Assembly (NCBI RefSeq): GCF_003569765.1
Contig: NZ_KZ983960.1
Coordinates: 1-46,273, forward strand
From: Caldimonas tepidiphila
GTDB taxonomy: Bacteria > Pseudomonadota > Gammaproteobacteria > Burkholderiales > Burkholderiaceae_C
Length of the DNA: 46,273 nucleotides
Direction: 5' to 3'
In this document: one piece after another, positions 19,532-42,614 of the stretch
Layout: each line of letters begins with the position of its first letter
Position numbering within the stretch: position 1 is the stretch's first letter
Notes under the pieces: model-generated
Seen by the model: only the letters and a program-made list of their open reading frames with translations
The model's database searches: none
Told to the model about the DNA's origin: nothing
Made by a program: the position numbers and the translations under genes

Positions 19532-21829
19532 TCAGTCGCCCATCGGGACCCGGCGCAGCGAAGGCGTCGAGTCGAAGAAGTTCCAGGGCTTGAGCAGCAC
19601 GTGGACCCATTCCGTGGGCATGATCGGCCACTCCTCGGCACGGGCCACGTGCGTGGTGCCGGTCGTCAGCCACACCACGTTGTCGACGTTGACGATCGAC
19701 TGGTCGTCCTGCGTGAACTGCCCGAGGCCCGTGTCCTTGCTGGAGCGGTTCGGGTACTTGCCCTCGGGGAACTGCTCCTCGGCGTTGTAGCGGGTGACCC
19801 AGAGCTGGCGGTCCATGAAGCTCAGCCGGTTGTAGATCCACTCGTCCTTGCTGAAGTTGGCCCCCTTGGCGATCGGGTGCGTGCCTCCGGCATACGGGAT
19901 GACTTGGTAGGACACCGGGTTGCCCATCCGGTTGAGCTTGCTCGGATTGCTCAGCAGCCGGATCGTCGAGGGGTCGAACTTCTGGGCCGCCTGCTTCTCC
20001 GTCTTCACCGTGCGCTCCACCGTCTGCATGGTGCTGGTGCGGGGGCCGCCGCGGGTGTTGGGCGCCACCACCGGGTCGATCTCGGTCAGCGAGTTCGCCT
20101 CGCCGTCGACGTCGAGGTCGAGCCGGAAGTTGTAGATGTGCTGGTGCGTGGTGCCGACGATGTTGTGGTCGATCAGCGTGCCGTAGCGGGTGTCCTCGGC
20201 CGCCGTGGCGTCCTGCATCGTGCGCGTCTTCACGCCCTTGACCGCCTCGATCCCGGTGGCGCCGGCGTTGATGCCGATGGTGCCGTTCTCCGAGAACACC
20301 CAGTCGAAGATGTAGTCGTAGTTGCCGACGGTGCTGATCCAGCGCACCACCAATTCCCGCCGCTCGGTGCTGACGTTGGGCTTGCCCATCTCCTGGTGCT
20401 TGTACTCGGGCCCGGCGTAGCGCTCGAACACCGCGATCGCGTTCGGGATCTTCGTCGGCTTGCCGGCGTAGTCGGCGAGCACCGCGTCCAGCATCACCGC
20501 GTTCGCCGGCGCGTCCGTCCCGCGCTCGATGGGGGAGGTCAGCGTTCCCATGCCGTACTCGCCGGAGTCGAGATAGGCCTTGAAGTACCAGCCCGCGTCG
20601 GGGTCGCCGTAGGGAACGATCATGCCGCCCAGAGAGCCTTCGTACATTACCTTGCGCTTCGTGCCCTTGTCGTTGTAGGTGACGGTGGACAGGACCAGGC
20701 CGACGCGCGAGTCGAGCCTCAGGTGGAAGTTCCAGTGGCCCCAGCGCAGGGTGTTGCCGCTGATCGTGTAGTTCTTGCCCTCCGGTTCGCTGATCTCCAG
20801 CGGCTTGGGCGCCGGGCGCTCGGCCAGCTCGCGCCCGTCGTAGGAATTGGGCTTCATCGGGATCGGGACCACGCCGTGATCCTCGACGCGGACGACCTTC
20901 TTCTGCACCAGGTCGACCACCGCGACCAGGTTCTCGATCGGGTGCGCCCAGTAGCTGCCGTCGCCGACGTCGAGGTAGCTCACCACCTTCAGCAGGCGGT
21001 CCTCCTGGCGCAGCTCGTCCTTGCCGTCGAAGTAGCCGACGGTCAGCGGCGTGGCGACCACCTTCCTGACGTCGGTGATGCCGCGCTTGGCCAGCGCGCC
21101 CGCGAACTCGGGGCTCGCCTCGATGGCCTCCTGCACCGAGGCGAAGTCGTCCACGAGCACCATGCCGTGCGCGCCCTCGATCGCCTTCCAGCTGGCGACG
21201 GTGCGGGTCCCGAGGTCCACCGTGCCCTCGACGACCGACTTGCCGTCGAGGATGACGAAGGAGGCCTGCCGGGGGGCCGCGACCGGCTGCCCGGTCATGG
21301 CGAAGTTCCAGACCTGTTCCTTGGGCGGCGTCTTCAGCGAGATCTCGGTGAAGCGGTAGCCCGGCCGGTAGCGGCCGCTGGCCTTGAGCACGTCCACCGT
21401 GGCCTGGATCTCCTCGGCGGTGAGGGGGTTCAGGGGACTGGGCGTGCGCTCGATGACGAAGGTCTTGTCCAGTCCGGACTGGAAGACCTGGTTGATGAAC
21501 TGCTCGGACACGAAGGGCTGGCCGCTGCGCATCGTCACCGGGACGTCGAGTTGCAGCGGCTGGCCGTTGACCAGCGCGGACCGGGAGCCGGGCTTCACGC
21601 GCACCAGCGTGCTGTTGCGCGAGATCGTGTAGACCTGCGAGAAGGCGTCCCAGCGCAGGCTGGCGCCGAAGTCCTCCAGTGTCTTCTTCATCGGCACCAT
21701 CTTCGCGGGCGCCCCGTGCGCCAGGGCGGCAGGAGCGGTCAAGCCGAGGGCGGCACCGACGGCGAGGGCCAGGGCGGTGTTGCGGAGGCGCTGCGCGGAG
21801 CGCCGGGTACGGGGAGTCTTCGGGGACAT
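19532..21829 (-). CDS. tynA: Primary (copper/TPQ) amine oxidase
   Basis: 765 residues, close to Escherichia coli TynA. It oxidises primary arylalkylamines such as phenylethylamine or tyramine to aldehydes, releasing ammonia and H2O2, in the periplasm. A signal peptide (LALAVGAALGLTAPAALA) ends near residue 37. The TPQ precursor is Y504 in NYDY, the catalytic base is D421 (YLDSGEYGMG), and copper ligands are H562 and H564 (THQHIYNF) plus the histidine of THVARAEEWP. N-terminal D1-D3 domains are present, including the copper-amine-oxidase-N-like KMVPMKKTLEDFGA segment. It lies between the aldehyde dehydrogenase and the outer-membrane protein in one operon. Aromatic amine specificity is inferred from context. 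Confidence 0.95.
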   Translation of the reverse strand: MSPKTPRTRRSAQRLRNTALALAVGAALGLTAPAALAHGAPAKMVPMKKTLEDFGASLRWDAFSQVYTISRNSTLVRVKPGSRSALVNGQPLQLDVPVTMRSGQPFVSEQFINQVFQSGLDKTFVIERTPSPLNPLTAEEIQATVDVLKASGRYRPGYRFTEISLKTPPKEQVWNFAMTGQPVAAPRQASFVILDGKSVVEGTVDLGTRTVASWKAIEGAHGMVLVDDFASVQEAIEASPEFAGALAKRGITDVRKVVATPLTVGYFDGKDELRQEDRLLKVVSYLDVGDGSYWAHPIENLVAVVDLVQKKVVRVEDHGVVPIPMKPNSYDGRELAERPAPKPLEISEPEGKNYTISGNTLRWGHWNFHLRLDSRVGLVLSTVTYNDKGTKRKVMYEGSLGGMIVPYGDPDAGWYFKAYLDSGEYGMGTLTSPIERGTDAPANAVMLDAVLADYAGKPTKIPNAIAVFERYAGPEYKHQEMGKPNVSTERRELVVRWISTVGNYDYIFDWVFSENGTIGINAGATGIEAVKGVKTRTMQDATAAEDTRYGTLIDHNIVGTTHQHIYNFRLDLDVDGEANSLTEIDPVVAPNTRGGPRTSTMQTVERTVKTEKQAAQKFDPSTIRLLSNPSKLNRMGNPVSYQVIPYAGGTHPIAKGANFSKDEWIYNRLSFMDRQLWVTRYNAEEQFPEGKYPNRSSKDTGLGQFTQDDQSIVNVDNVVWLTTGTTHVARAEEWPIMPTEWVHVLLKPWNFFDSTPSLRRVPMGD

Positions 21830-21954
21830 CGGATCTCTCGGTGGATGAGGCGGGAAGCGGTGGGGTATGGGTTTCCGGATGCCGGGCAGGCCCTGCCTGC
21901 GCCGTGATCTGGAAGCCTGCAAACCTTGCGGAGTTGCTGCGGGTGCGGCCGGTC

Positions 21955-23388
21955 TCAGGCCTTCTTCACGCTGATGACCTGGGGGCGGGTGACGGCCTTG
22001 AGCCCGTCGATGCCGAACTCCAGGCCCCAGCCCGAGCCCTTGACGCCGCCGAAGGGCACCATCGGATGGATGGCTCCGTGCTGGTTGATCCACACCGTGC
22101 CGGCCTGGATCCGCGTGGCGACGGCGCGTGCCGCCTCCACGTCGCTGCCCCACACGGAAGCGCCCAGCCCGGTGTCGAGCCGGTTGGCGGCCGCGATGGC
22201 CTCCTCGACCTCGCGGTAGCGGACGATCGGCAGCACCGGGCCGAACTGCTCCTCGTCGACCAGCGATGCGCCGTCCCGGATGTCCGTCACCAGCGTGACC
22301 GGGTAGAAGTGGCCCGGGCCGCCGGGGGGCGTGCCGCCGCAGACGATCGTCGCGCCTGCCGCGCGGGCCTCGTCGACCAGCCGGCGGACCTTGTCGAACT
22401 GCATGCGGTTCTGGATCGGGCCCATGACCGTGCCGGGCTGCATGCCGTCGCCCATCGGCATGGCCTCGGCCAGCGCCTTGAGCTCGGCCACGACCGCGTC
22501 GTGCAGGGCGTCCGGCACGTACAGCCGCTTGGCGCAGGCGCAGGTCTGGCCCATGTTGAGGAAAGCACCCCAGAACAGGCCCATGGCGATTGCCTTGGGA
22601 TCCGCATCGGGCAGCACGATCGCGGCGTCGTTGCCCCCCAGCTCCATCGTCGTGGGCGTCAGGTGACGGGCCGCCGTGGCGGCGATGCGCGCGCCGGTGG
22701 TGCTCGACCCGGTGAAGCTGATCTTGTCCACCCGCGGGTCGTCCACCAGCCAGCCGCCCACCTCGCCGCCACCGCTGACGGTGTTGAGCACTCCGGGCGG
22801 CAGGATCTCGGCGATCAGGCGCACCATCTCCAGCGTCCCGATGCTGGTGTATTCGGAAGGCTTGAGCACCACCGTGTTGCCCACGCGCAGGGACGGGATG
22901 ATCTTCCAGATGGCGATCAGCAGCGGCCAGTTCCAGGGCGTGATCGCCGCCACGACGCCGCAGGGCCGGCGGTGCACCTCGTCGCGGCGCGTCTCGTCCT
23001 CGAAGGCGAGCTCGACGGGCAGGTCCAGGCTCGCGGGCACCCGCGTCCAGACCTCGCAGCCCCAGAGCTCGAAGCGCGAGCCCGGCACCTGGTCCGGCCC
23101 GATGCCGCCCAGCGGCTTGCCCTGCTCGCGCGTGACCCAGGTGGCCAGGTACTCGGCGTTGGCCTTGAGCACGTCGGCCACCTGCATCAGCAAGTCCTTG
23201 CGCTCGGCGTCCGGCCGTGCCGCCCATGCGGGCTGGGCGGCCTTCGCTGCAGCGACGGCCCGGGCCACCTCCTCGGCGCTGGAGTTCGGCACCCGGCCCA
23301 GCACTTCGCCGGTGGCCGGGTTGCGGGACTCGAAGCTGGTGGCCGACGACACGGCGCGGCCGTCGCAGGTGTTGGTGAAGGTCTGCAT
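21955..23388 (-). CDS. Aldehyde dehydrogenase (phenylacetaldehyde-type candidate)
   Basis: 477 residues, standard NAD(P)-dependent ALDH length. Motifs are intact: AAITPWNWPLLIAIWKI, KPSEYT (cofactor binding), SFTGSSTTG, the general base E249 in ELGGND and the catalytic cysteine C283 in GQTCACAKR, with a second cysteine two residues later. It oxidises an aldehyde to the acid in the cytoplasm. Lying upstream of tynA, it most likely takes the arylacetaldehyde made by the amine oxidase and yields (hydroxy)phenylacetate, the role of FeaB in E. coli; specificity is inference. AGGAGA lies ten bases before ATG 23388. Confidence 0.9.
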   Translation of the reverse strand: MQTFTNTCDGRAVSSATSFESRNPATGEVLGRVPNSSAEEVARAVAAAKAAQPAWAARPDAERKDLLMQVADVLKANAEYLATWVTREQGKPLGGIGPDQVPGSRFELWGCEVWTRVPASLDLPVELAFEDETRRDEVHRRPCGVVAAITPWNWPLLIAIWKIIPSLRVGNTVVLKPSEYTSIGTLEMVRLIAEILPPGVLNTVSGGGEVGGWLVDDPRVDKISFTGSSTTGARIAATAARHLTPTTMELGGNDAAIVLPDADPKAIAMGLFWGAFLNMGQTCACAKRLYVPDALHDAVVAELKALAEAMPMGDGMQPGTVMGPIQNRMQFDKVRRLVDEARAAGATIVCGGTPPGGPGHFYPVTLVTDIRDGASLVDEEQFGPVLPIVRYREVEEAIAAANRLDTGLGASVWGSDVEAARAVATRIQAGTVWINQHGAIHPMVPFGGVKGSGWGLEFGIDGLKAVTRPQVISVKKA

Positions 23389-23720
23389 CGCGAGAGTCTC
23401 CTGACGGGTTCTGGAAGGGAGATGCCGCAGCGGTGAATGCCTCGCCCCCGGCCTTCGGCGGCGGGGGACGGCGTGCGGCAGTGAACGCAATCTAGGAGGG
23501 CTGCAGGGCGGACCGTTATCCGGATTCTGCAAATCGTCGCGAGGCCTGCAGGCGTCGGTGGGGGCATGACGCGAGCGGTCCGACCGCCGCGGTCTCTCGA
23601 CTCAATTGATCAGGGTTAACTCGCTGGCATGCCACGCGTGGTAGCGGCATGCTGCGACGCCGTCGTGGCATGGAAGGTGCATCCGGGCCGCGGCTCCGTC
23701 TCCGCAGACGTTTTCTGCCC
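23389..23720. promoter_or_regulatory. Divergent control region of amine operon and AraC regulator
   Basis: On the minus strand TAGATT (23494-23489) is a fair -10 for the aldehyde dehydrogenase/tynA operon, about 100 bases from its ATG. No good -35 precedes it, which fits an activator-dependent promoter. I could not define an AraC-type half-site pair with confidence. Nothing coding is seen. Confidence 0.4.
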
Positions 23721-24779
23721 ATGTTCACCCCCCTCTTCGACGAACTGAACTCCAACCCGGGGCGCCAAGGCTCGTGTGTGGTGCGCTACACGCGCACCGG
23801 CGACCTCGAGGAGCACACCCAGCAGCTGCTCGACTGGCAGCTCGAGTACGACCAACTCGATTGCGGCCGCTTCGAGGGCGACTTTCTCGACGTCCGGCTG
23901 CCTGGCATGCAGTTGTTCATGGAGCGCACCAGCCGCTGCCTGCTCCAGCATGGCGTGCTCGGCGCGGGTTCGGTGGGCATGGCGGTCATGCTGGGCGGGC
24001 AGGGCAGCCTGATCATCAACGGCGTGCGTCCCGGGCATCACGGCCTGGCCGCCGTCTACGATGGCGAGCTGGTGATGACGACGCCCGCGCAGTGCTCGCT
24101 CGCTGGCGTGGTCCTGGACGAGCAGCTGTTGCAGGAGGCGGCGCACGAGCTGCTGGGCCGGCCGCTGGACATCCGCCGCGGTCAGGTGACGGGACTGCTG
24201 GCCGACGGCGAGCATGTGGAACGGATGCTGGCGACGCTGCGTTCCGGCATCCTGCAGGCCCTCACGCGGCCGGACGCGTTCGAGGTCGACGTCCAGGCGC
24301 GTTCCGACATGCGCGACGAGCTGCTGGCGCACCTGGTGGGCATGCTCGCCGACGCCCGGGACACCGATGCCGAAGGTCGCGCCAGCCAGCGCAAGTGGCT
24401 GGTGGACCGGGCCTGCGCGCTGATGATGTCCCGCCCCCACGAGCCGCCCTCGCTCGAGGAGGTCTGCACCGAGATCGGCGTGAGCCTTCGCAAGCTCAAC
24501 TATTGCTTCCAGGACGTGCTGGGCCTGTCCCCCCATCGCTACGCCCGCACGGTCCGGCTCAATGCGGCGCGGCGCGAGCTGCGCCGCTGCGGGGACGAGC
24601 GCCGCAGCGTTCATGACGTTGCGGCCCGCTGGGGCTTCTGGCATCTGGGGCACTTCTCCACCGACTACAAGCGCCACTTCTGCGAGCTGCCGTCGCAAAG
24701 CCTGGATCGTGCACGCATGACGTCGCGGGCGGCGCAAGCTCGGCACATGAGCGTGCCGGGAGAGGCGCTGCTTTCATAG
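23721..24779 (+). CDS. AraC-family transcriptional regulator
   Basis: 352 residues from ATG 23721; the frame is open 24 codons further but that part is arginine-rich and unlike a protein start. The N-terminal sensor region includes WQLEYDQLDCGRFEGDFLDVRLPGMQLF, resembling the EutR/FeaR-like class that opens with an L-x-G-x-F-x-G pattern. The C-terminal region has two helix-turn-helix units: SLEEVCTEIGVSLRKLNYCF and VHDVAARWGFWHLGHFSTDYKRHF, the latter with the GF-x-x-x-x-F-x-x-x-[FY]-[KR] AraC signature. It is transcribed away from the aldehyde dehydrogenase/tynA operon and is the obvious candidate activator of that operon, with the amine as inducer (inference). Confidence 0.9.
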   Translation: MFTPLFDELNSNPGRQGSCVVRYTRTGDLEEHTQQLLDWQLEYDQLDCGRFEGDFLDVRLPGMQLFMERTSRCLLQHGVLGAGSVGMAVMLGGQGSLIINGVRPGHHGLAAVYDGELVMTTPAQCSLAGVVLDEQLLQEAAHELLGRPLDIRRGQVTGLLADGEHVERMLATLRSGILQALTRPDAFEVDVQARSDMRDELLAHLVGMLADARDTDAEGRASQRKWLVDRACALMMSRPHEPPSLEEVCTEIGVSLRKLNYCFQDVLGLSPHRYARTVRLNAARRELRRCGDERRSVHDVAARWGFWHLGHFSTDYKRHFCELPSQSLDRARMTSRAAQARHMSVPGEALLS

Positions 24780-24894
24780 GAGGTGGACCGCGCGCGTTCC
24801 GTCACGCGCTCGCCGCCTGGGGACCCCCCGTCGAGCGGCGGCGGATCCTTCCTCGCTTCGCCCGGCCTGCGGGCCCGCTGCCGGGAATCCTGGG

Positions 24895-24925
24895 TTGAAC
24901 GCTCCGGGCCTGCTGCTGTTAGCAT
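24895..24925 (+). promoter_or_regulatory. Possible promoter of tyrS leader
   Basis: TTGAAC at 24895-24900 and TAGCAT at 24920-24925 are the best hexamers, but their spacing is 19; TGTTAG at 24917-24922 gives 16. A start site just after the first would place the leader ATG at 24933 almost at the 5' end, so a leaderless leader peptide is possible. Confidence 0.4.
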
Positions 24926-24932
24926 GCGCGCC

Positions 24933-24989
24933 ATGATTTCCCTGTCCCGCGCTTGCCAGTATTACGCCTACCGCACCTCGCGGCGGTAG
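24933..24989 (+). CDS. Tyrosine-rich leader peptide of tyrS
   Basis: An 18-residue ORF, MISLSRACQYYAYRTSRR, ending in TAG. Three of its residues are tyrosine, clustered as YYAY (codons 24960-24962, 24963-24965 and 24969-24971). It lies 90 bases before tyrosyl-tRNA synthetase and overlaps the first hairpin strand of a set of mutually exclusive stems. This is the classic layout of an amino-acid leader peptide in which ribosome stalling at the named codons senses uncharged tRNA. An in-frame ATG at 24924 could add three residues. Translation itself is not shown; the reading frame and Tyr cluster are seen directly. Confidence 0.7.
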   Translation: MISLSRACQYYAYRTSRR

Positions 24990-25026
24990 GGCTTGCGCGC
25001 AACCCGGTCCGCCTGAGGCGGACCGG
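24969..25026 (+). promoter_or_regulatory. Transcription attenuator candidate upstream of tyrS
   Basis: Stem 1:2 is TACCGC (24969-24974) with GCGGTA (24983-24988), starting inside the last Tyr codon. Stem 3:4 is CCGGTCCGCC (25004-25013) with GGCGGACCGG (25017-25026), a perfect 10-bp stem with loop TGA. Stem 2:3 can form between GGCGG (24982-24986) and CCGCC (25009-25013). Stalling at Tyr codons would cover strand 1, free strand 2 and disrupt 3:4. A ribosome reaching the TAG at 24987-24989 would cover strand 2 and leave 3:4 to form. The stretch after 3:4 (CTCACCTGTTCC) is not a T-tract, so efficient intrinsic termination is uncertain. Confidence 0.6.
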
Positions 25027-25079
25027 CTCACCTGTTCCGGCGGTCACCTCGGGCGTTCCTCACATCGAAGGAGACCCCG

Positions 25080-26333
25080 ATGTCCCAGTCCCATGTGTCC
25101 GACCTCCTCCACCTGCTGGAAGAGCGAGGCTTCGTCCATCAATGCACCGACCCCGATGGCCTGCGCCAGGCACTGGCCGCCGGGGCGCTGACGGCCTACC
25201 TCGGCTTCGACGCGACCGCTGACAGCCTGCATGTCGGCCATCTGCAAGGGCTGATGCTGATGCGCTGGCTCCAGCGCGCGGGCCACCGGCCGCTGCTGCT
25301 GATCGGGGGCGCGACCACCCGCATCGGCGACCCGAGCTTCCGCGACAGCAGCCGGCCCGTGCTCGACCAGGGGACGATCGACGCGAACATCGCCGGCATC
25401 CGCAGCGCGTTCGACCGCTACCTCGGCAGCGGCGAGCACGGCCCGGCGGCCCTGGTGGTCGACAACGCGCAGTGGCTGGACGGTCTCGGCTACCTGGAGT
25501 TCCTCGACCGCGTCGGCCGCCATTTCAGCGTCAAGCGGCTGCTGACCTACGACGCGATCCGCACCCGGCTCGAGCATTCGCTGTCCTTCCTGGAGTTCGG
25601 CTACACGCTGCTGCAGGCCTTCGACTTCGTCGAGCTCGCGCGCCGACACGGCTGCACGCTGCAGGTCGGCGGCGCCGACCAGTGGGCCAACATCATCAAC
25701 GGGGTGGATCTGGGGCGCCGGGAGGGATCGCAACTCTTCGGCCTGACGATGCCGCTGCTGGCCACCAGCGACGGACGCAAGATGGGCAAGTCGGCCTCCG
25801 GGGCCGTGTGGCTGAACGCCGACCGGCTCGCGCCCTTCGACTTCTGGCAGTTCTGGCGCAACGTGGACGACCGCGACGTGGGGCGCTTTCTCGCGCTGTT
25901 CACCGAGCTGCCCATGGAGGAGATTCGCCGCCTGGACGCGCTCGAAGGGGCGGAGCGCAACGAGGCCAAGCAAGTTCTCGCGCACGAGGCGACCCGCCTC
26001 GCCCATGGAGAAGAGGCCGCCCGCATGGCTGCGCAGGCGGCGCGGGGCCTCTTCGGCAGCGAAGGCCATACCGATGCGCTGCCTGCGTTCATGCTGAGCA
26101 ACGAGCGTCTTCTCGCCGGCGTCACCCTTGCGGAACTCGCCGTGGAGTGCGGGCTGGCGACGTCCCGCAGTGCCGCTCGCCGACTGGCGCAGGGCGGCGG
26201 GCTGCGACTCGACGGCAAGCCGGTGGACACAGCGGACCAGCCGCTGCCGGCCGGCGCGGGCGAGTGGTTGCTGTCGGCGGGGCGCAAGCAGCATGCGCGG
26301 ATTGCCTTGGCCGATCCGGAGGGACGGGGCTGA
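25080..26333 (+). CDS. tyrS: Tyrosyl-tRNA synthetase
   Basis: 417 residues, class I synthetase. It charges tRNA-Tyr using ATP. The HIGH motif is HVGH at 51-54 after [11 protein letters not shown], and the KMSKS motif is KMGKS at 234-238. Tyrosine-binding elements include [11 protein letters not shown]. The C-terminal S4-like RNA-binding domain ([15 protein letters not shown]) is present. The fold variant resembles the type found in alphaproteobacteria and, more distantly, E. coli TyrS, rather than the other TyrRS type that I associate with betaproteobacteria, so this may be a second copy (inference from memory of the families). AAGGAG lies a few bases before ATG 25080. It is preceded by a Tyr leader and flanked by amine and homogentisate catabolic genes. 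Confidence 0.95.
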
Positions 26334-34175: not shown

Positions 34176-34183
34176 GAAACTCC

Positions 34184-34271
34184 ATGCAACCGCAAACCGG
34201 GCGAAAGCCCGGGACGCAAAGCCTCCGGCCTACAGCGCCTCATGCGCGCCACGGTAGCGGGGCTGCCGGTG
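34184..34271 (+). ncRNA. Cyclic di-GMP-I riboswitch (GEMM-I)
   Basis: The conserved core is unmistakable: CGCAAACC, a stem closed by a GAAA tetraloop (GGGCGAAAGCCC), then GGGACGCAAAGCCTCCGGCC, a variable hairpin, and ACGGTAGCGGGGCTGCCGG. The same blocks occur in the same order in the Vibrio cholerae Vc2 aptamer. It binds c-di-GMP in the 5' leader of an mRNA. The ATG inside it (34242) is therefore not a real start. Its 3' end GCCGG (34265-34269) can also pair with CCGGC (34292-34296), which touches the downstream sequestering hairpin and offers a switching route (inference). Confidence 0.92.
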
Positions 34272-40096: not shown

Positions 40097-41058
40097 CGTG
40101 CCTCCTCCGTCGCCCGTCGCGGGTCGAGCGCCATGCAGGCGGCGTCGACCCCGAGGTTGAAGGCCACGAACAGCAGGCCCATGCACAGCGCGGTGCCCTG
40201 GATCATCGGCACGTCGCGGCCGAACACCGCATGCACCAGCGCGTGCCCGATGCCCGGCCAGGCGAACAGCGTCTCGACCACCAGCGCGCCCTCGGCGAGG
40301 AAGACGGTCTGCACGCCGAGCCAGGCGACCACGGGCAGCGCGGCATGGCGCAGGCCGTGGCGCAGCAGCGCCTGCCAGTCGCTCAGGCCCTTGGTGCGCG
40401 CGAACTCGTGCGAGGGCGACTGCACCGCCTCGCGCATCGCGTGACGCGCCACGCGCGCCAGGCCCGCGGCCAGCGGCAGCGCCAGCGTGAGCGCCGGCAG
40501 CAGCAGGCCGCCGTCATGCGCGTCGCCGGCCACCGGCAGCATGCCGAGCTGCACCGCGACGAGCAGCATCAGCAGCAACGCGAGCAGGAAGGGCGGCATC
40601 GCGCGCAGCAGCACCGCGAGCGCGAGCGTGAGGCGGTCGCAGCCGCCGCCCGGGCGCAGCCCGGCGCGGATGCCCAGCGGCAGCCCGATCAGCGCCGCCA
40701 GGCCCACCGAGGCGAGCGCGAGGTCGATCGTGTGGCCGAGCTGGTGGGCCACCTCCTGCCAGACCGGCACGCCGGTCACGAGCGAGGTGCCGAGGTCGCC
40801 GCGCGCGATCTCGCCCCACCACTGCAGCAGCGCGAGGCCGAGCGGGCGGTCCAGCCCCAGCTCGGCGCGCACCGCGTCGGCCGCGGCATTGCTGACGAGG
40901 TCGTAGCCGTAGCGGCCGGCGGCGATGCGCGTGGCGAGGTCGCCCGGCAGCGCGCGCGCCATGAAGAAGCAGACGGTGCCGACGAACAGCGCGAGCGCGA
41001 GCGCCTGCACCGCACGCCGGGCCAGCAGCCCGCCCCAGGCGGAAGAGGGACCCATCAT
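40093..41058 (-). CDS. Dipeptide/nickel-type ABC permease (DppB/NikB-like)
   Basis: 321 residues. A first helix VQALALALFVGTVCFFMARALPGD is followed by the periplasmic ELGLDRPLGLALLQWWGEIARGDLGTSLVTG, which is typical of DppB/NikB. Later come several helices (ALASVGLAALIGLPLGIRAG, PPFLLALLLMLLVAVQLG) and the EAA-like loop (HEFARTKGLSDWQALLRHGLRHAALP). It ends with VVETLFAWPGIGHALVHAVFGRDVPMIQG, the classic DppB signature. Start ATG 41058 (a second ATG at 41055) overlaps the stop of the binding-protein gene. Confidence 0.94.
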   Translation of the reverse strand: MMGPSSAWGGLLARRAVQALALALFVGTVCFFMARALPGDLATRIAAGRYGYDLVSNAAADAVRAELGLDRPLGLALLQWWGEIARGDLGTSLVTGVPVWQEVAHQLGHTIDLALASVGLAALIGLPLGIRAGLRPGGGCDRLTLALAVLLRAMPPFLLALLLMLLVAVQLGMLPVAGDAHDGGLLLPALTLALPLAAGLARVARHAMREAVQSPSHEFARTKGLSDWQALLRHGLRHAALPVVAWLGVQTVFLAEGALVVETLFAWPGIGHALVHAVFGRDVPMIQGTALCMGLLFVAFNLGVDAACMALDPRRATEEAR

Positions 41059-42614
41059 GCCTGCCACCTCATCTGCGTGAGGCGGTAGGAGCGCTCCAGC
41101 GGGTCGAGGCTCACGCCCGAGACGCGCGCGCTCACCGCGACCTGCTGCCGGTACCAGGCGATCGGGATCACCGGCAGCTCGGCCTGCAGCACGCCCGCCA
41201 CCTGCCGGCGCTGCTGCACGAGGCGCCCGGGCGGCAGGCCGCCGCGGGAGAGCTCGGCCAGCGCCGCCTCGAGCATGGCGCTGCGCCAGCCCATCGCGCC
41301 CCAGTCGCCGCCCTGCGGCCCGAAGTCCTGCGCCAGCGTGCCTGTCGGGTCGGGCACGGTGGCGTAGTTGCGCGCGGCCAGCCCCAGCTGCAGGCTGCCG
41401 TCGCGGTGCCCGAGCGGAATGTCGCCGGAGTTGCCGATGTTCACCTTCACCGCGATGCCGGCCAGGCGCCACTGCTCCTGCAGCACGGTGGCGATGATCG
41501 GCAGCTCGGGCCGGTCGGGGAAGGTGCGCAGCGCGAGCGTCAGGGGCCGGCCCTGCGGGTCGCGCAGCCCGTCGGCGGCGCGGCGCCAGCCGGCCTCGGC
41601 GAGCAGCCGCGCGGCGGCTTCCGGGTCGTGGCCGAGCGGCGGCAGACCCTCGTCGTGCCAGCCGCGCAGCGTCGGCGGGAAGAGCTGCGTCGCGGCGAGC
41701 TCCGGGTCGCGCAGCACCGCCAGGGCGATGCCCTTGCGGTCGATCGCGAGGCTGAGCGCGCGGCGCACGCGCAGATCGCCCAGCGCCGGCAGCCCGGCGT
41801 TGAGCTTGACGATCACGGTGCGCGGCAGCGTCACCGTCTCGACCGGGACCTTGCCGCGGCGGCGCAGGCGCTGCAGGCTCGCCGGGTCGAGCCCGTAGGC
41901 GAGGTCGGACTGGCCGCTCTCGGCCATCAGCGCGCGCGTCTCGGGCCGGCTCGCGACGAGGTAGCGCACCCGCCCGATCGCCGGCCGCGGGCCGTCGTAG
42001 TGCTCGAAGGCCACCGCCTCGACCTGCTGCGGCGGCGCGAGCAGCGAGACCCGGTAGGGACCGCTGCCGACGATCGCCTGCACGCTGCCGTCGGCGCGGT
42101 AGCTCGACGGCGCGAGCACCAGCGTGCTGCTGTGCGCCAGCAGTGCGGGCAGTCCGCCGAAGGGCGCCGACAGGCGGATGAGCACGACCGCCGCGCCCTC
42201 CGCCTCGATCGAGCGGACGGGCGCCGCGCTCAGCAGCGCCGGCGGGGTGCGCGCGGCCTCGAGGCAGCGCACCACGGCTGCCGCCGTGACCGGGGTGCCG
42301 TCATGGAAGCGGGCGGCAGGCCGCAGCTCGAAGCGCCAGGCGAGGCCGTCGGCCGAGACGCTCCAGCGCCGTGCGAGCGCCGCTTGCGGCGTGCCGTCGT
42401 CGAGCGCGTCGAGCAGCGTCTCGGCGATCTGCATGCGGGTGAAGACATAGCCGCTGGCCGCCGGCGCGAGGCCGCCGATCTCCCAGGGGCCGACGATCTG
42501 GAGCGGCCCCCGCGAGGGCTGGGCGCGGAGGGCGAGCGGTGCCGCGCCGGCCGCGAGCCCGGCGGCGCCGAGCCGCAGCAGGTCCCGGCGCGTGAAGTCG
42601 GGGAAAAGTGTCAT
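41055..42614 (-). CDS. Periplasmic solute-binding protein, peptide/nickel type
   Basis: 519 residues, SBP family 5. A twin-arginine signal TRRDLLRLGAAGLAAGAAPLAL suggests export in folded form. Family landmarks are GLAWRFELRPAARFHDGTPVTAAAVV, VGSGPYRV, LNAGLPALGDLRVRRALSLAIDRKGIA and LLAEAGW. It delivers its ligand to the two permeases. Because a TonB-dependent receptor precedes it, the ligand probably enters through the outer membrane as a chelate or metallophore complex such as nickel or iron, but peptide or opine uptake is not excluded. The TonB gene ends 11 bases upstream. Confidence 0.92.
   Translation of the reverse strand: MTLFPDFTRRDLLRLGAAGLAAGAAPLALRAQPSRGPLQIVGPWEIGGLAPAASGYVFTRMQIAETLLDALDDGTPQAALARRWSVSADGLAWRFELRPAARFHDGTPVTAAAVVRCLEAARTPPALLSAAPVRSIEAEGAAVVLIRLSAPFGGLPALLAHSSTLVLAPSSYRADGSVQAIVGSGPYRVSLLAPPQQVEAVAFEHYDGPRPAIGRVRYLVASRPETRALMAESGQSDLAYGLDPASLQRLRRRGKVPVETVTLPRTVIVKLNAGLPALGDLRVRRALSLAIDRKGIALAVLRDPELAATQLFPPTLRGWHDEGLPPLGHDPEAAARLLAEAGWRRAADGLRDPQGRPLTLALRTFPDRPELPIIATVLQEQWRLAGIAVKVNIGNSGDIPLGHRDGSLQLGLAARNYATVPDPTGTLAQDFGPQGGDWGAMGWRSAMLEAALAELSRGGLPPGRLVQQRRQVAGVLQAELPVIPIAWYRQQVAVSARVSGVSLDPLERSYRLTQMRWQA

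Follow-up and report, generated by a model that had tools for sequence, protein, structure and literature searches.

Upstream of tyrS in Caldimonas tepidiphila, a short reading frame rich in Tyr codons is followed by a perfect 10-bp hairpin that lacks a T-tract. How might such a leader report on charged tRNA-Tyr, and by what route would the signal reach the synthetase gene? We addressed this by comparing the locus with its relatives and by folding calculations. The whole stretch of DNA analysed, 46,273 nucleotides, is called the window throughout, and the features under discussion are collected in Table 1.

Table 1. Positions in the window of tyrS and of the proposed elements of its leader
Feature	Position	Strand	Remark
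-35-like box TTGAAC	24895..24900	+	19-nt spacer, longer than usual
-10-like box TAGCAT	24920..24925	+	ends 7 nt before the leader ATG
Tyr leader peptide ORF, encodes MISLSRACQYYAYRTSRR	24933..24989	+	ATG to TAG, 18 codons
Tyr sensor codons TAT TAC GCC TAC	24960..24971	+	
Strand 1, CCTACCGC	24967..24974	+	would lie under a ribosome held up at the Tyr codons
Strand 2, around the leader stop codon	24982..24990	+	can pair with strand 1 or strand 3
Strand 3	25004..25013	+	partner of strand 2 or strand 4
3:4 hairpin segment able to pair with strand 5, GCCTGAGG plus GACC	25011..25024	+	
Strand 4 of the 10-bp 3:4 hairpin	25017..25026	+	
Strand 5, putative anti-Shine-Dalgarno switch strand, GGTCACCTCGGGC	25042..25054	+	partner is strand 4 or the Shine-Dalgarno sequence
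Strand 6, tyrS Shine-Dalgarno region AAGGAGACC	25068..25076	+	target of strand 5
tyrS, tyrosine--tRNA ligase, 417 aa	25080..26333	+	second TyrRS gene of the genome

A sequence-only reading of this locus had described an 18-residue ORF with a YYAY cluster, and this was borne out: the three Tyr codons lie at 24960-62, 24963-65 and 24969-71, and the leader stop is separated from the tyrS start by 90 nt. Conservation of such codons upstream of orthologous genes had been put forward as a check on the idea. Counting as a leader any Tyr-clustered ORF that ends 60-130 nt before the tyrS start, we found one in 57 of 76 upstream regions (the window and 56 of its 75 relatives), compared with 15 of 760 dinucleotide shuffles of these regions and with 20 of 6525 points sampled within the window; a chance ORF was therefore rejected. 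The relatives sampled were the best 80 of 99, with 82 loci in all before exclusions. Leaving out the window itself (L001), the genome's own other TyrRS (L002) and five loci in which the match did not start at base 2001 (L015, L069, L073, L077 and L078) gave the 75 loci plus the window. The 57 leaders lie 72-117 nt from tyrS and span three classes, the alpha-, beta- and gammaproteobacteria, with hosts that include Pseudomonas, Stutzerimonas, Massilia, Thauera, Pseudothauera, Methyloversatilis, Azospirillum, Thalassospira and Telmatospirillum. Among relatives the sensor codons alternate between TAT and TAC, mostly remaining Tyr; exceptions include TGC (L011) and CGC (L046), and in the AFYYAL group of leaders a Leu codon replaces the third Tyr. 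The leader is thus genuine and conserved. Three of the five loci excluded for their match position (L069, L073 and L077) contain Tyr-containing short ORFs 138-200 nt before the match. The one in L069, a Caulobacteraceae MAG, encodes MVVRSRRPASYYRSHT (796-846) upstream of a related tyrS and is possibly a further true leader; those of L073 and L077 look unrelated. No Tyr-containing short ORF was present upstream in L078, or in the 4 bases that L015 has upstream.

The RNA following the Tyr codons offers the mutually exclusive pairings of a trp-type attenuator. Strand 1 and GCGGTAGG (24983-24990), which holds the stop codon, are perfect 8-bp complements; 25004-25013 and 25017-25026 form a perfect 10-bp hairpin with a UGA loop; and GGCGG in strand 2 (24982-24986) can pair with CCGCC in strand 3 (25009-25013). 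Both the hairpin just after the ORF and a strand 2 at the stop codon, pairable with strand 3, had been noted from the sequence alone, as had the competing 1:2 hairpin. The one correction needed is that strand 1 begins in the Ala codon before the last Tyr codon, not inside a Tyr codon.

We examined these helices in an alignment, A1, of 43 distinct beta- and gammaproteobacterial sequences (L040, identical to L033 in this stretch, was left out). The helices of the presumed off state (1:2, 3:4 and 5:6) were formed in 88.6% of cells, with 26 double-change cells compared with 10.9 in shuffles (0/500), while slid versions reached at most 53% and 12. Helix 2:3 was paired in 215/215 cells and is nearly invariant, a G-C to A-U change (AGCGG/CCGCT for GGCGG/CCGCC) occurring in two Massilia-type sequences. 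When partners were swapped among 44 sequences, a test that ignores relatedness, helix 1:2 was weakened (0/5000 permutations as good), as was 3:4 (16/5000), and three control pairings were not; for 2:3 the test was negative (1122/5000) because this helix hardly varies. The measures least inflated by relatedness gave, for the off set, 6 pairs changed on both sides compared with 3.5 (25/500) and pair types at 99/500, and for 2:3, 83/500 on both counts. The covariation that the earlier reading had looked to in the three stems is therefore present in part: double changes occur in the set made up of 1:2, 3:4 and 5:6, 2:3 is nearly constant, and the measures least inflated by relatedness are weak. 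Taken with the conserved codons, the comparison strongly supports a Tyr leader with trp-type 1:2, 2:3 and 3:4 alternatives before tyrS.

The leader also has a further strand. Strand 5 can pair either with the 25011-25024 segment of the 3:4 hairpin or with the Shine-Dalgarno (SD) region at 25070-25076, and since the two pairings overlap, the output would be placed at the ribosome-binding site. Both pairings show compensatory changes. Across the 43 sequences, helix 4:5 forms in 79.3% of cells (slid versions at most 60.8%) and has 31 double-change cells compared with 10.1 in shuffles (0/500; slid versions at most 8), typical versions being GCCTGAGG/CCTCAGGC, GCCCGAGG/CCTCGGGC and GCCCAAGG/CCTTGGGC. 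An ungapped 4:5 match with 7 or more of the 8 pairs exists in 38 of 44 sequences (native mean 7.52, swapped 7.07), and partner swapping in the same 44 weakened both 4:5 and the pairing of strand 5 with the SD (0/5000 as good in each case). On the measures least inflated by relatedness 4:5 was not significant (5 pairs changed on both sides versus 4.4, 213/500; pair types 174/500). In Azospirillum the first 4:5 pair is G-C in seven copies, T-A in one, C-G in one and a mismatch in one (L056), next to a GTCTC/GAGAC core kept in 10/10. Helix 5:6 was paired in 85.7% of cells, the window's own version having one mismatch, and is retained despite a differing SD context in Massilia (L003) and, as judged by eye, in Thalassospira (L057). 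The mean SD openness computed for beta/gamma leaders was 0.11, compared with 0.32-0.34 in shuffles, in keeping with a masked SD. Comparative data thus support the Tyr leader ORF and helices 1:2, 3:4, 4:5 and 5:6, while 2:3 is never broken.

The start of the leader message can also be predicted. A TAnnnT box lies 6-8 nt before an in-frame start in 41 of the 57 leaders (background 0.0044 per position), and 36 of the 57 additionally have a -35 element of at least 4/6 at 16-19 nt; the start was chosen among in-frame starts to suit the promoter, which favours the box match to some degree. An SD-like tetramer occurs in only 4 of these 41 box-bearing leaders. The position of a -10-like box 6-8 nt ahead of most leader starts makes a leaderless message probable, predicted to begin at or beside the leader ATG. 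There was no such box in 16 of the 57, most of the alphaproteobacteria among them, and a stricter promoter scan returned no site in the window. The trp attenuator of Sinorhizobium meliloti is described, in the portion of the source available, as leaderless in the same way, its RNA beginning at the trpL ATG, but it responds to Trp, serves a biosynthetic gene and acts through a transcription terminator (PMC7298713).

The explanation that we favour, with a probability of roughly 0.7, is ribosome-mediated attenuation, in which the leader would sense charged tRNA-Tyr and regulate the second TyrRS gene mainly at translation initiation. In fed cells the ribosome would reach the leader stop and cover strand 2, leaving strand 3 to fold with strand 4; with strand 4 occupied, strand 5 would fold onto the tyrS SD and the gene would be off. 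In cells starved of Tyr-tRNA the ribosome would wait at the Tyr codons, covering strand 1, so that strand 2 could grip strand 3 while strand 4 is being made; strand 4 would then capture strand 5 before transcription reaches the SD, which would stay open. Without a ribosome 1:2 would form, again giving the off state. We infer the promoter position, leaderless start, kinetic folding order, main output and physiological trigger; in beta/gamma copies the main output is most likely translation initiation.

Folding calculations bear on whether such a leader could switch. In equilibrium folds of 44 beta/gamma leaders, with a ribosome footprint placed at the first Tyr codon (starved) or at the stop (fed), SD openness did not differ (0.106 starved, 0.114 fed), and none of the 44 gained more than 0.2 upon starvation; the window moved in the wrong direction (0.20 starved, 0.50 fed) and none of 13 alphaproteobacterial copies switched. 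Because equilibrium folding shows no difference between starved and fed states, the mechanism would have to depend on kinetic control, a mode accepted for trp attenuators. We therefore also computed conditional and truncated folds, in which the locked helices are assumptions. Holding 3:4 formed gave a mean SD openness of 0.10 (window 0.21), and freeing strand 4 together with the last three bases of strand 3 gave 0.35 (window 0.65). The gain exceeded 0.1 in 31 of 44 leaders; in the other 13 it was 0.1 or less even with these bases, GCC, free. Helices 2:3 and 4:5 overlap by exactly this GCC, and holding strand 3 wholly in 2:3 gave a small mean gain, from 0.10 to 0.17, and a change from 0.21 to 0.17 in the window. 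While strand 4 was incomplete, a ribosome placed at the first Tyr codon gave 2:3 a mean probability of 0.94 (with the ribosome at the stop this helix is absent by construction). The probability of 4:5 before the SD is transcribed was 0.85; just before the SD emerges, 3:4 and 4:5 were about equally likely, starved and fed alike.

To see how widely the arrangement occurs we used a covariance model, R1, built on the tyrS leader. In the Pseudomonas family it matched 36 of 248 genomes (39 matches). Twenty-eight of these matches scored above 80 bits, and 27 of the 28 loci contain a homologue of this tyrS. At the 28th (L112) a tyrS remnant lies downstream and the leader (1477-1655) reads MRIFLCPISAYTTT, its Tyr run gone, so that leader and tyrS seem to decay together. 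Nine of the 11 weaker matches (L118-L124, L126 and L127) precede a single type of protein, and the one scanned, in L123, is the threonine ammonia-lyase IlvA; the remaining two are L117, without the search motif, and G898, outside the comparison. The leaders of these nine read ..SIITAI.. (..SIIITAI.. in L122), thus placing Ile codons before an Ile pathway gene, and in eight of the nine the 8 nt that follow the 3:4 stem contain at least 5 T. They also show a terminator-like stem and a possible anti-SD strand. Across the phylum R1 matched 5 of 398 genomes; that in G634 is an ilvA leader, and that in G574 (L125; 27.9 bits) was discounted as chance, as only a 33-codon frame follows the end of the model. 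Two further matches were taken as chance, a weak one within the window (41047-41169; 10.5 bits, E 0.83) and another in which R1 picked up the palindromic hairpin on its minus strand. With E values up to 1 allowed, R1 misses the Azospirillum leaders L047, L054 and L076, as well as L058 and L059, and it scores L070 (15.0 bits) and L057 (10.3 bits) weakly. Alphaproteobacterial copies were for this reason compared by eye and by a short pattern, and they are taken as homologous to the others on the strength of position, Tyr codons and layout.

The ilvA leaders L120 and L123, which R1 scored at 37 and 36 bits, matched the Rfam family RF00624, 'Pseudomonas sRNA P9', at 61.8 and 82.5 bits. P9 reportedly stems from a 2006 study of P. 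aeruginosa sRNAs. The window leader itself scored 22.6 bits (E 0.0072), under the gathering threshold of 43, and none of eight other tyrS-leader loci matched P9 at E up to 1. Like the tyrS leader, the P9/ilvA leader combines regulatory codons in a short ORF with hairpins 1:2 and 3:4, a strand able to pair with strand 4 or the SD, and promoter-like boxes near its start. It differs in its Ile codons (SIITAI), its ilvA gene and the U-tract that follows 3:4 in eight of nine cases. P9 would accordingly be the RNA of an ilvA attenuator, and the tyrS and ilvA leaders appear to share a scaffold, whether or not by common descent.

Two of the other explanations give transcription termination a larger part than ours does. 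The lack of a T-tract, flagged at the outset as the weak point of the attenuation idea, is real: there are no terminator-like sites in window positions 24700-25200, and 39 of 44 beta/gamma copies, the window included, do not reach 5 T in any 8-nt stretch around the end of the 3:4 stem. Intrinsic termination as the main beta/gamma output was therefore set aside. At least 5 T in 8 nt do occur in the other five copies, and, judged by eye, three alphaproteobacterial copies (Thalassospira L057 and L058, and Aestuariispira L070) have a U-tract after 3:4 together with an SD-masking strand. One might accordingly suppose a dual output, weak or Rho-dependent termination at 3:4 combined with SD masking in a balance that varies by lineage. 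This overlaps with our own explanation, which puts translation first, and we regard it as possible, if short of probable; it fits the coexistence of a U-tract and SD-masking pairing in L070 and at the ilvA loci, and untranslated, masked messages are commonly open to Rho. Unlikely, in our estimate, is classical transcription attenuation, in which 3:4 terminates, possibly weakly or with the help of NusG or Rho, leaving strands 5 and 6 a subordinate role. The 1:2/2:3/3:4 arrangement is that of trp and his leaders, and the T-rich stretches in the five beta/gamma copies, like the U-tracts in the three alphaproteobacterial ones and in eight of the nine ilvA relatives, would suit it. Set against this are the scan of the window and the 39 copies just mentioned, and it leaves unexplained why strand 5 matches its own strand 4 and SD better than those of others. 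The trp/his-type logic of the sequence-only reading thus stands for the leader and its alternative helices and is not supported for termination. Of the two other outputs that it had entertained, Rho or translation, the latter is now favoured on account of strands 5 and 6, which it had overlooked and whose pairings largely explain the missing T-tract.

Strand 5 also complements the apical part of the 3:4 hairpin, making it topologically possible for 4:5 to sit in an H-type pseudoknot with the basal 3:4 stem and be read by something other than a stalled ribosome; we consider this improbable, as codons that change synonymously yet stay Tyr, and a conserved start close to a promoter-like box, both point to translation of the leader. 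Chance occurrence of ORF and hairpins in GC-rich DNA, to which the mildly unusual single-sequence fold (z -2.2) might be thought to leave room, is contradicted by conservation over three classes and by partner-specific pairing and can be dismissed.

The gene that would be controlled is confidently identified: the tyrS product scores 322 bits against TIGR00234 (cut-off 114), a tyrosine--tRNA ligase family. The genome's other TyrRS gene, on a separate contig, has 36% identity to it and no Tyr-clustered ORF in the scanned stretch before it; a third PF00579 gene would encode TrpRS. Across 299 genomes from the same family, which cover three other members of the genus, a tyrS of the same kind (E <= 1e-100) was present in this genome only, and in a TyrRS tree it groups with Massilia-type sequences, adjoining one Pseudomonas set and a Thauera-type set. 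Likely, then, tyrS was acquired together with its leader from another lineage, loss in the relatives being the lesser alternative. On this tree, which leaves out L039 (short frame) and labels L070 (VYFARLP, one Tyr) leader-bearing although it is outside the 57, the leader label needs 2 changes, compared with a shuffled mean of 16.4. The leader looks to have been inherited with this tyrS lineage, with one loss in three Pseudomonas (L036, L037 and L043). This clade carries the same tyrS without a leader, and in L036 and L043 a short inverted repeat, CTACCTATCGGTAGGT, stands before tyrS instead.

Three or more PF00579 genes, the number that two TyrRS and a TrpRS would give, were present in 20 of 22 sampled leader-bearing genomes, gene identities being inferred from scores. 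The two with only two such genes are P. aeruginosa PA7 (this TyrRS and TrpRS) and Massilia BSC265 (two TyrRS). In PA7 (L019) the leader-bearing tyrS thus appears, by its PF00579 scores, to be the sole TyrRS gene. It follows that in most sampled hosts the leader-bearing tyrS is likely a backup or on-demand TyrRS, without this being a rule.

Copper amine oxidase and aldehyde dehydrogenase genes (minus strand) and a gene for an AraC-family regulator (plus strand) lie beside tyrS in the window (19532-24779). An aldehyde dehydrogenase homologue is found on the upstream side of tyrS in two Massilia loci, L003 and L005, and on its downstream side in five Pseudomonadaceae loci; homologues of AraC, IclR or the amine oxidase were not found in the flanks, mostly 2 kb, of L003-L082. 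A c-di-GMP-I riboswitch is present further along the window (34181-34270, plus strand, 74.8 bits). For the P. aeruginosa tyrZ region, the part of a small-RNA screen available to us lists SPA0055, antisense to PA0667 beside tyrZ (PMC3349714), which may or may not be the leader RNA. Transcription initiation of Pseudomonas tyrZ may be controlled as well, since an Anr box is predicted upstream of it in the section of the source consulted (PMC6588701).

Leader-peptide attenuators before synthetase genes have a precedent in pheST of E. coli, whose leader peptide likewise carries codons for the amino acid that the synthetase handles. Proteobacterial attenuators are reportedly treated by Vitreschak et al. 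2004. In erm-type translational attenuators a ribosome stalled in the leader ORF frees a masked downstream SD, much as proposed here, but they sense antibiotics and not amino acids. T-boxes, which control tyrS in Bacillus, likewise regulate synthetase genes, but bind tRNA directly and have no leader peptide. A T-box was rejected here: at gathering thresholds the whole window returned only the c-di-GMP-I riboswitch, and at E up to 10 positions 24850-25120 matched only P9 and H19_2. SD masking has been proposed for an actinobacterial ileS T-box, according to the part of the source available, and in this respect it resembles the tyrS leader (PMC1262725). For Streptomyces the same partial source lists leuS and trpS2 as having candidate attenuators (PMC1262725), and another, likewise partial, gives a candidate hisS attenuator in Bacillus (PMC2965389); these too have cognate-codon leader peptides before synthetase genes, but are described as terminator attenuators, none of them for Tyr or tyrS. 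The uORFC-8-2 motif, a predicted ribosome-mediated attenuator of Rhodobacterales cysS, also precedes an aminoacyl-tRNA synthetase gene and has tandem cognate codons. As far as the available text of that report goes, it differs in its Cys codons, in an intrinsic terminator U run in all cases, in its different group and in having no SD-masking relay described (PMC8632094). A tyrS leader peptide of Proteobacteria was not found in the portions of the open-licence PMC literature examined, in line with the initial reading, which knew of no described tyrS case in this group, nor is an SD relay described there for leader-peptide attenuators of synthetase genes.

These comparisons suggest a wider proposition, in which we see the chances as evenly balanced and which we put forward as a whole. 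Proteobacteria would possess a portable six-strand attenuator scaffold, in which a relay of helices passes on the position of the ribosome in a leaderless sensor ORF to an SD about 100 nt downstream and in which specificity and output have both been exchanged, Tyr and tyrS in one case, Ile and ilvA in the other. The tyrS version would act chiefly by SD masking, usually with no terminator, and the ilvA version by a terminator together with SD masking, its terminated RNA being the orphan 'sRNA P9'.

If the mechanism favoured here is correct, proteobacterial tyrS would have a cis-acting sensor of charged tRNA-Tyr, the role played by the T-box in Firmicutes. The added switch strand suggests a route by which a transcription attenuator could become a translational one, and the two leaders would provide a natural example of one attenuator layout serving two different amino acids. 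The orphan Pseudomonas RNA P9 would at the same time be given a testable function. Finally, since the leader precedes a second TyrRS in most hosts sampled, the sensor may mark a backup enzyme that is made only when the main TyrRS fails.
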